Shown: piece by piece, positions 46,176-51,539 of the stretch
Layout of the letters: every line of letters begins with the position of its first letter
How positions within the stretch are numbered: position 1 is the stretch's first letter
DNA from: Magnetococcales bacterium DCbin4
GTDB lineage: Bacteria; Pseudomonadota; Magnetococcia; Magnetococcales; UBA8363
Reading direction: 5' to 3'
NCBI GenBank assembly: GCA_002753735.1
Contig: PEAN01000027.1
Span: forward strand, 1-51,757
DNA: 51,757 nucleotides
Position numbers and translations under genes: made by a program
The notes under the pieces: model-generated
Database searches by the model: none
What the model saw: the letters and a program-made list of their open reading frames with translations, nothing else
What the model was told of the DNA's origin: nothing

Positions 46176-46319
46176 CACAAACCGTGGCGAAGGAACATTC
46201 ATGGCGGATGAGGGGTCTGAAGAGTTTGGTACGTACCGTACAACGGCTTCGTTGCTCTTCAAAGGTTGAGTGTGACAAAGTGGAAGTATCCAAACACCGG
46301 CATGAATATGGAGTTTCCG

Positions 46320-46931
46320 ATGTCAAGCACAACCACCTTTGATGATGTCTGGAAATTGTTCCAGGAAACCGACCGCATGGTCAAAGAGACCTCAGCCCAG
46401 ATGCGGGAAACCGACCGCAAGTTTCAGGAGACGGACCGCAAGTTTCAGGAGACGGACCGCAAGTTTCGGGAAACCGAGCGTCTGGTCAAGGATGTTTCCC
46501 GGCAGGTGGGAAATCTGACGGGCAAGTGGGGACAGTTTGTGGAAAACCTGGTGGCCCCTGGTTGCCGGACCCTGTTTGCCGAGCGGGGTATTCCGGTGCA
46601 TCAGGTGCATCAACGGATCAAGGCCAACCTGGATGATGGTCGCACCATGGAGATCGATATCCTGGTGGTCAATACCGATGCGGTGGTGCTGGTGGAGGTC
46701 AAGAGTACCCTGACGGTGGCCGATGTTCGGGATCACCTGGAACGCCTGGCACAATTCAAAGAATTTTTTCCCCGTTACGGAGATTGTCGGGTGATGGGAG
46801 CGGTGGCGGGGATTGTCACCGAGGAGGATGCGGAACGTTTTGCAAGAAATCAGGGGCTTTTCGTGATGGTCCAGTCAGGGGATGGGGTGACCCTGGCCAA
46901 TGAATCGGGGTTTGAACCGCGGGCCTGGTAG
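46320..46931 (+). CDS. Coiled-coil PD-(D/E)XK nuclease-like protein, copy 1
   Basis: The protein has a coiled coil and a restriction-endonuclease-like fold. Residues about 14-60 are heptads of the form QETDRKF, repeated with slight changes. Residues about 66-200 carry the catalytic pattern EID (D113) and EVK (E126, K128), as in DUF3782-type PD-(D/E)XK proteins. The ATG at 46320 has TGGAG eight bases upstream; longer in-frame starts exist at 46302 and 46308. It is 203 residues. A second copy follows at 47002, identical from the last heptads to the end. DNA cleavage, repair or transposition-linked roles are possible; none is shown. Confidence 0.7.
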   Translation: MSSTTTFDDVWKLFQETDRMVKETSAQMRETDRKFQETDRKFQETDRKFRETERLVKDVSRQVGNLTGKWGQFVENLVAPGCRTLFAERGIPVHQVHQRIKANLDDGRTMEIDILVVNTDAVVLVEVKSTLTVADVRDHLERLAQFKEFFPRYGDCRVMGAVAGIVTEEDAERFARNQGLFVMVQSGDGVTLANESGFEPRAW

Positions 46932-47001
46932 CGATCAGGCGCTCCATGAACGGGTAGGCGGTCCCCGGTATCCAAACATTTGCATGAATATGGAGTCTCC
47001 G

Positions 47002-47634
47002 ATGTCAGGTACAACCACCTTTGATGATGTCTGGAAATTGTTCCAGGAAACCGACCGCATGGTCAAAGAGACCTCTGTCCAGATGCGGGAAACCGACCGC
47101 ATGGTCAAAGAGAACGCCGCCCAGATGCGGGAAACCGATAGAAAATTTCAGGAGACGGACCGCAAGTTTCGGGAAACCGAGCGTCTGGTCAAGGATGTTT
47201 CCCGGCAGGTGGGAAATCTGACGGGCAAGTGGGGACAGTTTGTGGAAAACCTGGTGGCCCCTGGTTGCCGGACCCTGTTTGCCGAGCGGGGTATTCCGGT
47301 GCATCAGGTGCATCAACGGATCAAGGCCAACCTGGATGATGGTCGCACCATGGAGATCGATATCCTGGTGGTCAATACCGATGCGGTGGTGCTGGTGGAG
47401 GTCAAGAGTACCCTGACGGTGGCCGATGTTCGGGATCACCTGGAACGCCTGGCACAATTCAAAGAATTTTTTCCCCGTTACGGAGATTGTCGGGTGATGG
47501 GAGCGGTGGCGGGGATTGTCACCGAGGAGGATGCGGAACGTTTTGCAAGAAATCAGGGGCTTTTCGTGATGGTCCAGTCAGGGGATGGGGTGACCCTGGC
47601 CAATGAATCGGGGTTTGAACCGCGGGCCTGGTAG
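47002..47634 (+). CDS. Coiled-coil PD-(D/E)XK nuclease-like protein, copy 2
   Basis: This is a tandem duplicate of the preceding gene. It is 210 residues, one heptad longer: it has an extra METDRMVKENAAQMR-type unit and one fewer RKFQETD unit. From RKFRETERL to the C-terminal RAW the protein is identical to copy 1, and the DNA is too as far as I can compare, pointing to very recent duplication or ongoing conversion. The catalytic EID and EVK residues are intact, so both copies may be active. The ATG at 47002 has the same upstream TGGAG context. Confidence 0.7.
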   Translation: MSGTTTFDDVWKLFQETDRMVKETSVQMRETDRMVKENAAQMRETDRKFQETDRKFRETERLVKDVSRQVGNLTGKWGQFVENLVAPGCRTLFAERGIPVHQVHQRIKANLDDGRTMEIDILVVNTDAVVLVEVKSTLTVADVRDHLERLAQFKEFFPRYGDCRVMGAVAGIVTEEDAERFARNQGLFVMVQSGDGVTLANESGFEPRAW

Positions 47635-47704
47635 CGATCAGGCGCTCCATGATCGGGTAGGAGGTCCCCGGTATCCAAACATTTGCATGAATATGGCGTC
47701 TCCG

Positions 47705-47797
47705 ATGTCAGGTACAACGACCTTTGATGATGTCTGGAAACTGTTCGCGGTAGCGCATTCCCACTCCTTGACAACCATGACGGACCCGGAAGAGTGA
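47705..47797 (+). pseudogene. Truncated third nuclease copy fused to exported-gene tail
   Basis: The first 14 codons match copy 2 (MSGTTTFDDVWKLF), then at about 47747 the sequence switches to the end of the exported-protein gene and its terminator, read in another frame to a stop at 47797. The upstream region (from about 47635) also matches the DNA before copy 2. It looks like a deletion joint between a third nuclease copy and a lost exported-protein paralogue. Confidence 0.8.
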
Positions 47798-47820
47798 TAT
47801 TCCGGGTCCGTTGTCGTTTT
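47747..47820. repeat. Direct repeat 2: exported-gene tail plus terminator
   Basis: This is the second copy of the 46103-46175 block. It includes a terminator with the same 12-base stem at 47780-47811 and a new 8-base loop, followed by TGTCGTTTTT. Confidence 0.85.
47780..47820 (+). terminator. Duplicated intrinsic terminator
   Basis: ACGGACCCGGAA, loop GAGTGATA, TTCCGGGTCCGT and a T-rich tail. The stem is identical to the terminator at 46136 while the loop differs, so the stem is either recent or under selection. Confidence 0.85.
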
Positions 47821-47971
47821 TCAAGCCCGAAGGATGCCATCGTCGAAACTGTGTGGGGATCCTGTTTTTTTACTTTTATTAATTTGGAGGTGAGGCGTAC
47901 CATAAGGGCAACGTGGGGCGCGTTCATTGTGTCTGACCTCGGGCCAACCCTTGGAGATTAGGATTTGAACC

Positions 47972-49075
47972 ATGAAAAAATCAAAGGCTCAATTACTTGG
48001 GGTAGCAGCATTTTTTGTGATCATGGCAATGGGAATTGCCAAGTTTCCCATGGCGGGGGACAACAAGGAGCCTTCCTGGGTTTCCGTTCCAATGGAGGTG
48101 AAGGCAATCGAGGGAACATGGATCATGGATCCGCGGGACGGTTCGCAACCGGAGCCTGGAACCACGAAAGATCGGGCCGCAGTTGGTGATCGGATGGCCG
48201 CCAATCAACCGGGATCAGGAGGGATGACGGGGCGACCTCCGATGGCTGGTGGGATGGGGCCTCAGGGAACGATGCAAGGTGGTCCTGGAATGGGGAATGC
48301 TCCAGGAATGATGCATGGTCCGGGGATGGGGAATGCTCCAGGGATGATGCCTGGTCCGGGGATGGGGAAAGGTCCGGGGATGATGCAAGGTGGTCCGGGG
48401 ATGATGCAAGGTGGTCCGGGGATGATGCAAGGTGGTCCGGGGATGATGCAAGGTGGTCCGGGGATGATGCAAGGTGGTCCGGGGATGATGCAAGGTGGTC
48501 CGGGGATGATGCAAGGTGGTCCGGGGATGATGCAAGGTGGTCCTGGGATGATGCAAGGTGGTCCGGGGATGATGCAAGGTGGTCCGGGGATGGGGAATGG
48601 TCCGAAGGGTCCAAATGCTCCGGGGATGATGCAAGGTGGTCCAGGGATGGCAGGGATGGGGAATGATCCGAATGCTCCGGGGATGATGCAAGGTGGTCCA
48701 GGGATGGGGAACCGGATGGGGGGGATGTCGGGAGACTCCATGAATTTTACCCGTCTGGCCCCCGATATCGAGGCGGTCGAACGGTATCTCTATGACCAGA
48801 TGCAACGGATCAACATCACCAGCGCCCAGGAGAAGGCATGGAATTCCTTTGCCCAGGCGATCATGAACCAGATCACCAGCCAGATCAACACCATGAACAC
48901 CATGCGCAAGGCGATGAAAGAGAGTCCGATGGATCGTATTGAACAGCAGTTGACCGCCATGGAAGCGATGGTGAAACAACGTCGTGCACTGTTCCAGGAG
49001 TTCAGATCCTTGCATGAACAGCTCACCAGCGTGCAAAAACCGATGGCGGAACAACTGTATGCCGAGTTTCAGTAA
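47972..49075 (+). CDS. Exported Met-rich protein with Spy/CpxP-like LTxxQ domain
   Basis: This is a predicted periplasmic protein of 367 residues. An N-terminal signal or anchor (KKSKAQLLGVAAFFVIMAMG) is followed by a short linker and about 160 residues of Gly/Pro/Met repeats, including ten perfect GPGMMQG heptapeptides. The C-terminal 120 residues form a helical domain with two LTxxQ-type motifs, ITSAQEKAW and LTSVQKPM, as in Spy, CpxP and ZraP chaperones. Met clusters of this kind bind Cu(I). A CopA-type ATPase follows 16 bases later, so a role in periplasmic copper binding or protection is likely. AGGAT lies about ten bases before the ATG. The combination is unusual. Confidence 0.7.
   Translation: MKKSKAQLLGVAAFFVIMAMGIAKFPMAGDNKEPSWVSVPMEVKAIEGTWIMDPRDGSQPEPGTTKDRAAVGDRMAANQPGSGGMTGRPPMAGGMGPQGTMQGGPGMGNAPGMMHGPGMGNAPGMMPGPGMGKGPGMMQGGPGMMQGGPGMMQGGPGMMQGGPGMMQGGPGMMQGGPGMMQGGPGMMQGGPGMMQGGPGMMQGGPGMGNGPKGPNAPGMMQGGPGMAGMGNDPNAPGMMQGGPGMGNRMGGMSGDSMNFTRLAPDIEAVERYLYDQMQRINITSAQEKAWNSFAQAIMNQITSQINTMNTMRKAMKESPMDRIEQQLTAMEAMVKQRRALFQEFRSLHEQLTSVQKPMAEQLYAEFQ
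48371..48580 (+). repeat. Ten tandem 21-bp repeats encoding GPGMMQG
   Basis: The unit is GGTCCGGGGATGATGCAAGG plus T. Ten copies are almost identical in DNA (one has TCCTGGG), so the array is young or kept uniform and should vary in number between strains. Looser MMxGPGMG units flank it on both sides. It is protein-coding, not a CRISPR. Confidence 0.95.
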
Positions 49076-49084
49076 GGAATTGAA

Positions 49085-49108
49085 ATGAATCATGTCAACG
49101 CTTCTTGA
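49085..49108 (+). CDS. Possible 7-codon leader overlapping copA start
   Basis: ATG at 49085 opens a seven-codon frame (MNHVNAS) that overlaps the first codons of copA in another frame. The AAGGA at 49074 is six bases from this ATG but 13 from the copA ATG, so ribosomes may load here first. It may be chance. Confidence 0.25.
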
Positions 49109-51539
49109 TTCCACTTCCACAAACACGGTGATGCTGCCGGTCAGCGGCATGAAGTGCGCTTCCTGTTCAGGGCGTGTGGAGCGGTGTTTGAATGATCTGC
49201 CGGGGATTTCCAAGGCATCCGTCAACCTGGCCATGGCCCAGGTCTCGGTAACGGGTGCGGTGGCAGTGCCTGATCTGATGCGTGCGGTGGAACGCCTTGG
49301 GTTTCGGGTTCCGGTTACGACCGAGACGTTTCGTCTGGAAGGGATGATTTCGGAGGGGGATGAACGGAGGGTCGAACAGATATTGGCGGCGGTTGTAGGG
49401 GTGCGTGCGGTGACCTGCGATCAGGCCAGTGTCACCATCACCTACATTCCGGGGACCGTGACCCTGGAAAAGTTGCAGCAGGCGATCCAACCGGCAGGGG
49501 GTCGTCTGGTGCGGATCGAAGACCATCGGGAACAGGTGGATGTGCTTGAGGAGGAACGGGAGCGGGAATACCGGGCCATCCGCAATCGGCTGTGGCCCGG
49601 TGCGATCCTGGTGGCGGCCACGGTGGTCCTGGTTCATTGGGAGATGTGGGGGCTGGGGCGGATCCTTGAACTGTCCAGGACGACCAACCAATGGTTGCAG
49701 TTGTTGCTGATTTTCCCGGTACAGTTTTGGTCGGGGGGGTTGTTTCACGCCGATGCCCTGGCGACGGCACGGCACGGGGCGACCAACATGCACAGTCTGG
49801 TTTCCCTGGGGACGTTCAGTGCCTTCATCTATTCGGTATGTGTTCTTCTGGTTCCCGATTTTTTTGCCGTCCGGGGGGTGGTTGCCGAGGTTTATTTCGA
49901 GACTTCCGGCTCGATCATCGTGTTGATTTTGTTGGGTCGTTTTTTGGAGATTCGCGCCCGGGGACGGACGTCGATGGCGATTCGTTCCCTGATGGAACTG
50001 GCACCCAAAATCGCCCGGGTGGCGCGGGAGGGGGTCGAGATCGACATTCCCCTGGGGGAGGTGGTGGTGGGGGATCGGGTGATCGTCCGTCCCGGGGAGA
50101 AAATTCCCGTGGATGGGGTGGTGCTTCAGGGATCCTCGGCGGTGGATGAATCGATGTTGACCGGGGAATCGATGCCGGTGTTGCGGGGGGTGGGGGCAAC
50201 GGTGACCGGGGGTACGCTCAACACGACGGGATCCTTGACCTTCGAGGCGACCCGGGTTGGGCGGGAGACCGCTCTGGCCCGGATTGTGGACATGGTGGGA
50301 CGTGCCCAGGGGGCCAAACCGCCCATCGCCCGATTGGCGGATCGGATTGCCGCCATTTTTGTTCCGGCGGTTTTGGGGATTGCGGCACTTACTTTTTGTG
50401 CCTGGTGGTTTTGGGGTCCCGAGCCTGCGTTGACCTATGCGTTGCTCAATTTTGTTTCAGTGTTGATCATTGCCTGTCCGTGTGCCCTGGGTTTGGCGAC
50501 GCCGACCTCGATCATGGTGGGGACGGGACGGGGGGCGGAGCATGGAATCCTGGTCAAGGGGGGGGATGCCCTGGAGACGGCGCACAAGGTGGATGTGGTG
50601 GTCTTTGACAAAACGGGGACGTTGACTTGTGGCAAGCCGGTTGTGACCGATTGGACCGGCGATGATGGGCAATTGGCGATGGTGGCGGCGGCCGAGACCG
50701 GTTCAGAGCATCCCATCGCCCAGGCCATTGTCACTCTGGCCCGGGGGAGGAAGTTGGCGCTGCCCCGGGTCGATTCCTTTGAAGCTGTGGCCGGGTTTGG
50801 AGTCCGAGCCACGGTTGATGGCAAGGAGGTCCTGGTGGGGACGCGGGGCTTGATGCGACGGGAGGGGATGGATTGTTCTGCCGAAGAGGCTGCCCTTGAA
50901 CGATTGGAGCAGGCGGGCAAGACGGCGATGTTGGTGGCGGTGGCGGGGCGGATGGTGGGGATCATTGCGGTGGCTGATGTCCTCAAGCGGGAGAGTCCTG
51001 CCGCGGTTGCCAGGCTCAAGGCGTTGGGCCTGGAGGTGATCATGTTGACGGGGGATAATGCTCGGACGGCACGGGCGATTGCCGACGAGGCGGGGATCGA
51101 GCGGGTCGTGGCGGAGGTCTTGCCGGAGCATAAATCGGGGGAGATCGAACGGTTGCAGGGGCAGGGAAAGACGGTGGCCATGGTGGGGGATGGCATCAAC
51201 GATGCGCCGGCCTTGGCGCGGGCCGATGTCGGCATCGCTTTGGGGACGGGGACCGATGTGGCCATGGAGAGTGCTGCGATGACGTTGATTTCCGGGGATC
51301 CGCGAGGGGTGGCGGTGGCCATTGAGCTTTCGCGGGCGACCATGACCAACATTCGGCAAAATTTGTTTTGGGCGTTTGCCTATAATATCATTCTGATCCC
51401 TTTGGCGGCGGGGGTATGGTTCCCGTGGTTTGGGATTTTGCTTTCGCCGGTGTTTGCGGCGATGGCGATGGCACTTTCCAGTGTGACGGTGGTGACCAAT
51501 GCTTTGAGATTGCGCCGCTTCAAACCGCTATTGGTTTGA
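49092..51539 (+). CDS. copA: Cu(I)-exporting P-type ATPase
   Basis: CopA pumps Cu(I) out of the cytoplasm. One intact metal-binding domain carries GMKCASC (residues 19-25); a second domain-like stretch (about 80-145) has lost the CxxC (GMISEGD). Eight membrane helices follow. Visible are TGES of the actuator domain (about 357), CPC in [14 protein letters not shown] (about 461), DKTGT (about 505), the nucleotide-binding [17 protein letters not shown] (about 699), and the copper-class YN and MALSSV motifs in the last two helices. It is 815 residues. It follows the Met-rich protein gene by 16 bases, in one likely operon. No CueR or CopY box could be assigned. Confidence 0.94.

Follow-up and report, generated by a model that had tools for sequence, protein, structure and literature searches.

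What does a protein that joins a methionine array to an LTXXQ domain do directly upstream of a copper exporter gene, and is the array its functional core? This question is raised by an open reading frame in a stretch of 51,757 nucleotides, here called the window, which is the whole of contig G000:C137 in a Magnetococcales assembly of 4.52 Mb that is 96% complete. The locus comprises the following features.

47777..47814, + strand: intrinsic-terminator-like hairpin of 15 pairs with a T run (terminator scan)
47867..47903, + strand: promoter-like element TTTTTRCTWTTRWTAA-N13/14-KTACSAT (alignment), kept upstream of the orthologue in 7/7 genomes
47972..49075, + strand: gene of the Met-array LTXXQ protein, 367 aa from ATG, frame open
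47972..48064, + strand: N-terminal hydrophobic signal peptide or anchor (read from translations), similar in congeners
48284..48370, + strand: looser upstream PGM/PGMM units (repeat scan and translation)
48371..48580, + strand: ten perfect 21-base units encoding GPGMMQG, residues 134 to 203
48581..48715, + strand: looser downstream PGM/PGMM units (repeat scan and translation)
48794..49057, + strand: LTXXQ domain (PF07813) with motifs ITSAQ and LTSVQ (Pfam scan)
49092..51539, + strand: CopA, a P1B-type Cu(I)-exporting ATPase (TIGR01511), with two N-terminal HMA stretches and a CPC motif

Layout of the protein and its copA neighbor

From its hydrophobic N terminus, the window protein runs through an arm of Gly, Pro, and Met into the C-terminal LTXXQ domain, and it is probably located in the envelope. 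The full-length protein has 58 Met and 0 Cys, so that Met is its sole soft sulfur ligand, and there is 1 His in residues 1 to 252. The original prediction described ten perfect GPGMMQG units between two looser blocks; the count is exactly 10, in register, and flanking PGM triplets start at residues 105, 111, 117, 123, and 129 on one side and at residues 205, 217, 224, 236, and 243 on the other. Tandem Repeats Finder reported a period of 21 with 16.6 copies, 83% matches, and a score of 462 for positions 48371 to 48706. At the DNA level, the ten perfect units comprise nine copies of one 21-mer and a single unit that is one synonymous base off, which suggests recent tandem duplication. Three open frames on the minus strand span the array (48215-49234, 48123-48614, and 48262-48741); such long antisense frames result from a 21-base repeat without stops and are not evidence of genes.

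Assignment of the C-terminal part to the LTXXQ (Spy/CpxP-type) proteins was borne out, as PF07813 scored 30.4 bits at residues 275 to 362 against a gathering cutoff of 24.3. Both predicted LTxxQ-type motifs are there, LTSVQ at residues 351 to 355 and ITSAQ at residues 282 to 286, the latter being an ITxxQ rather than an LTxxQ motif. Among 28 aligned relatives, Q31, W35, and L92 are invariant and Q100 is conserved in at least 90%. The earlier statement that no named family contains this fusion does not stand, since LTXXQ is itself a named Pfam family and Met-rich linkers are joined to this domain repeatedly in the order, so that the fusion is not unique. A structure model of the domain (112 aa), built from two sequences only, showed four helices at a mean pLDDT of 68.6, and a Foldseek search with this two-sequence model gave no match at an E value of 0.001. 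PDB sequence searches with the domain found no relevant match, the curated NCBIfam models for Spy or CpxP had no match in the window protein, and tblastn of the whole protein against plasmids had none either. The only other PF07813 match in the window genome (L071; G000:C77:25005-25283) has few Met residues, and no copA was found in its flank.

The downstream ATPase scored 614.7 bits against TIGR01511 (copper-translocating P-type ATPase; cutoff, 397), and the gap between the stop codon and the copA ATG is 16 bases, as predicted. On the upstream side, terminator-like sites numbered 2 versus 1.6 expected in shuffles, so that it is by stem length only that the hairpin is convincing as the putative end of an upstream transcription unit. 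The ORFs at positions 46266-46931 and 46900-47634 are near-identical and lie in tandem; both have a variable coiled-coil repeat and match NERD/DUF3782/PDDEXK weakly. With a truncated third copy (47603-47797) just 5' of the terminator, they form a local tandem duplication.

Conservation within the genus

A domain search found an orthologue in six of the seven other genomes of the genus, with 69 to 72% identity, and no match in the remaining one (G001, 75% complete). In all seven genomes having the orthologue (window included; eight genomes searched), copA follows directly in the same orientation. The window protein contains 20 PGM triplets and the six other orthologues contain 0, 0, 0, 0, 1, and 1, while the linker Met fraction is 0.20 in the window protein and 0.05 to 0.14 in the others. 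Genomes G002 to G006 have 5 to 10% linker Met with 0 to 1 PGM, G007 has 14% with no PGM, and all keep the adjacent copA. The exact GPGMMQG array is thus confined to the window genome, and the view of the perfect array as the functional heart of the protein finds no support in that form, as it is absent in 6/6 other orthologues of the genus that keep the domain, the promoter-like element, and copA. Of all parts of the locus, the array is conserved least; the domain, the N terminus, and copA are the genus constants. Judged from the sequences compared, the exact array looks like a recent, lineage-specific expansion of a Met-enriched linker.

Such an expansion may also have been neutral. A 21-base unit in a G/P/M-rich linker would then have grown by replication slippage, with the LTxxQ domain doing all the work, and both the near-identity of the DNA units and the lack of the array in the other orthologues agree with this. 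We nevertheless regard this explanation as somewhat unlikely, since other genera also have LTXXQ proteins with Met-rich arrays, built of different units, and the Met content follows copper context, as detailed below. Among 398 genomes, only the window genome and G026 matched a DNA pattern made for the 7-residue unit; this pattern is too strict, misses 6-residue units, and says little on the absence of Met arrays generally.

The most conserved upstream block is the promoter-like element, located in the window about 70 to 105 bases 5' of the ATG. Windows of 20 columns over this element contained up to 10 invariant positions versus 0 to 1 farther upstream. The pattern occurred exactly once in each of the seven locus-bearing genomes, and 0 times in G001 and in a reversed-pattern control; since it was derived from the same seven sites, the lesson is limited to no other site in these genomes sharing the element. 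We infer a sigma-70-like promoter (TTGATA/TTATTA, spacer of 16, TAC[GC]AT), which a promoter consensus scan of the window upstream region did not report at 47867..47903. A search for simple CueR-type operator patterns upstream of the gene found none. A second conserved block, TCGGGMCAAC-like, was seen by eye in 6/7 genus loci, 20 to 40 bases 5' of the ATG (about 47935 to 47955 in the window).

Gene context across the order and beyond

Of 48 Magnetococcales genomes, 35 had PF07813 matches, and the union of three domain searches yielded 50 LTXXQ loci with flanks. The best CopA match lay 14 to 1701 bases downstream on the same strand at 16 of these loci, versus about 0.01 expected by chance in rough arithmetic, and upstream or on the opposite strand at 0/50. 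A response regulator of the OmpR type and a HAMP sensor kinase form a divergent pair beside 14/50 loci, counted with one kinase/regulator pair as query and a regulator at least 57% identical (weaker pairs, for example G026c and G030b, were left out). The gene of a small HMA-domain protein directly follows the LTXXQ gene on its 3' side at 11/50 loci, and at least one of copA, the kinase pair, or the HMA protein is present at 25/50; the LTXXQ genes of G037 and G008 lie near a contig end, which cuts the neighborhood off. The predicted linkage of Met-rich LTXXQ genes to copper genes is hence non-random, with copA at 16/50 loci, a copper-type context at 25/50, and copA in 7/7 genomes of the genus. 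Judged from gene neighborhoods, the link to copper genes is real and extends past the window's genus.

Seen from copA, an LTXXQ gene lies upstream in 16 of 36 orthologous copA loci and is missing in 20, of which two (G034 and G040) have under 400 bases of upstream sequence; the 36 were taken from 39 CopA-like places scoring above 550 bits (left out: G029:C9, G025:C19:598445, and G018:C1:1232379). CopA can therefore do without the LTXXQ protein. Mapped on the CopA tree, linkage is clustered and requires 5 changes versus a mean of 11.9 in shuffles, and at least 3 of these are forced by supported branches, so linkage appears to be inherited, with repeated gain or loss. At three loci (L041, L049, and L069 in G028, G025, and G029), the recurrent kinase-regulator pair, the LTXXQ protein, the HMA protein, and a DUF2231 membrane protein form a cluster, and two of the three clusters also contain copA and cytochrome-like genes.

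The methionine content of the linker was compared between contexts after dropping three of the 50 loci, which have linkers under 20 aa and are all without copper context. The median Met fraction was 0.176 in 25 copper-type loci versus 0.055 in the remaining 22 (Mann-Whitney p 9e-5, relatedness uncorrected), and 0.175 in the 16 copA-linked loci versus 0.083 in 31 others (p 0.023, relatedness uncorrected). In genomes with both kinds of copy, the copy in copper context was clearly Met-richer in 4/5, G012 being mixed. Counter-examples exist: Met-array LTXXQ genes adjoin a thiol-peroxidase-like gene in G026 (locus G026a) and G011 (G011a) and other non-copper genes in G030, all neighbors being named by eye.

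A methionine array could also serve as a sink for hypochlorite or copper-driven oxidants that MsrP, the periplasmic methionine sulfoxide reductase, regenerates, following the logic of MrpX. MsrP is encoded in 4/8 genomes of the genus, among them the window genome (467 bits versus an NCBIfam cutoff of 207). It lies on another contig there, however, no MsrP match accompanies the orthologue in G004 and G006 (99% complete), and the neighbors of the gene are copper genes rather than msr genes, which makes this role very unlikely in our view.

The LTXXQ protein might instead act mainly as an accessory regulator of the CpxP/ZraP/CnrX kind that binds a sensor kinase and holds it off until metal or misfolded protein appears, its Met linker sensing the metal. 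The divergent kinase pair at 14/50 loci is the classical layout for such a regulator, and the periplasmic loops of several of the kinases have His/Met-rich stretches. In the window's genus, however, no homologue of the pair adjoins the gene in 7/7 locus-bearing genomes, yet the protein persists beside copA; the best kinase matches elsewhere in the eight genus genomes align over the kinase part only, with 32 to 37% identity. ZraP and CnrX are LTxxQ-type periplasmic metal-responsive accessory proteins for Zn or Ni/Co that use His ligands, whereas the window protein has Met and no sensor partner at its locus in the genus. An accessory regulator is accordingly an unlikely description of the window protein.

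The domain profile of the order matched 81/397 genomes of the phylum, order included. Among 60 outside-order loci fetched from 74 listed relatives, a CopA-like ATPase (over 300 bits) was found within the fetched flank at eight, and three or more PGM triplets at one. G059 repeats the window layout, with a Met-rich arm, an LTxxQ domain, and then CopA directly downstream. As far as these sequences tell, the copper link reaches beyond the order and PGM arrays mostly do not. Six of the eight CopA-linked outside loci (L123, L132, L133, L140, L143, and L149) come from one family, f23; at these six, the CopA-like ATPase gene lies 5' of the LTXXQ gene and in opposite orientation to it, which makes a second linkage of another arrangement.

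Proposed role and known relatives

We favor, with a probability of roughly 0.55, the reading that the gene serves envelope copper defense as a partner of copA, its product tethering a Met-rich, Cu(I)-buffering arm to an LTxxQ domain of holdase- or sensor-like type. The gene would be cotranscribed with copA from its own promoter, and the protein would be exported or membrane-anchored and face the periplasm. Chemistry and linkage suggest that the arm of Gly, Pro, and Met, putatively disordered and rich in thioether ligands, may act as a low-affinity, high-capacity buffer for Cu(I) pumped out by CopA; a Met-only arm would suit weak, fast-exchanging periplasmic Cu(I) binding. The LTxxQ domain, predicted to be helical, may protect or monitor envelope proteins like Spy/CpxP, going by its family. 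The kinase pair beside 14/50 order loci suggests that the gene belongs, or once belonged, to a regulated envelope response of the CpxP kind. The perfect 10-unit expansion would raise Met in one lineage and so tune capacity without defining function. Only tentatively would we extend this to a Magnetococcales copper-defense module in which a CopA-coupled LTxxQ protein carries a fast-evolving array, repeat number tunes buffering, and the genus promoter replaces the two-component sensor.

The combination belongs to known kinds, LTXXQ proteins and Met-rich copper buffers, and is not a new kind. To our knowledge, SilE has no LTxxQ domain. Like SilE and PcoE, the window protein would be a Met-containing periplasmic protein of a soft-metal export locus (PMC5008109 and, for PcoE, PMC7558416). 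SilE is disordered until metal is bound and relies on His and Met motifs (PMC5008109), unlike the window protein with its 1 His in residues 1 to 252. CopM of Synechocystis (copMRS) is a Met-rich periplasmic Cu(I)-binding protein needed for copper resistance that is encoded with a two-component system and has two DUF305 domains (PMC4335983); a Pfam scan found no DUF305 in the window protein. A role in weak periplasmic metal binding has been proposed for SilE, PcoE, and CopM (PMC5008109, PMC7558416, and PMC4335983), none of which is known to belong to the LTXXQ family.

With Spy/CpxP, the window protein shares a domain above the Pfam cutoff that is predicted to be helical and has two LTxxQ-type motifs; it differs in its long Met-rich arm, its putative operon partner copA, and the lack of a kinase pair at the locus. 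A disordered N-terminal part is also found in Escherichia coli Spy, where it aids client release (PMC9122904). The hits of a copper-evolution experiment in E. coli included CpxP, a protein with two LTXXQ motifs (PMC9219993). A literature search joining methionine-rich, LTXXQ, copper, and periplasmic found none; subscription papers were mostly outside this search, which makes it weak evidence of absence.

Knowledge of how periplasmic Cu(I) is handled right after its export by CopA is incomplete. The order-wide variation in arm length and composition offers a handle on whether one protein unites metal buffering with protection of envelope proteins.
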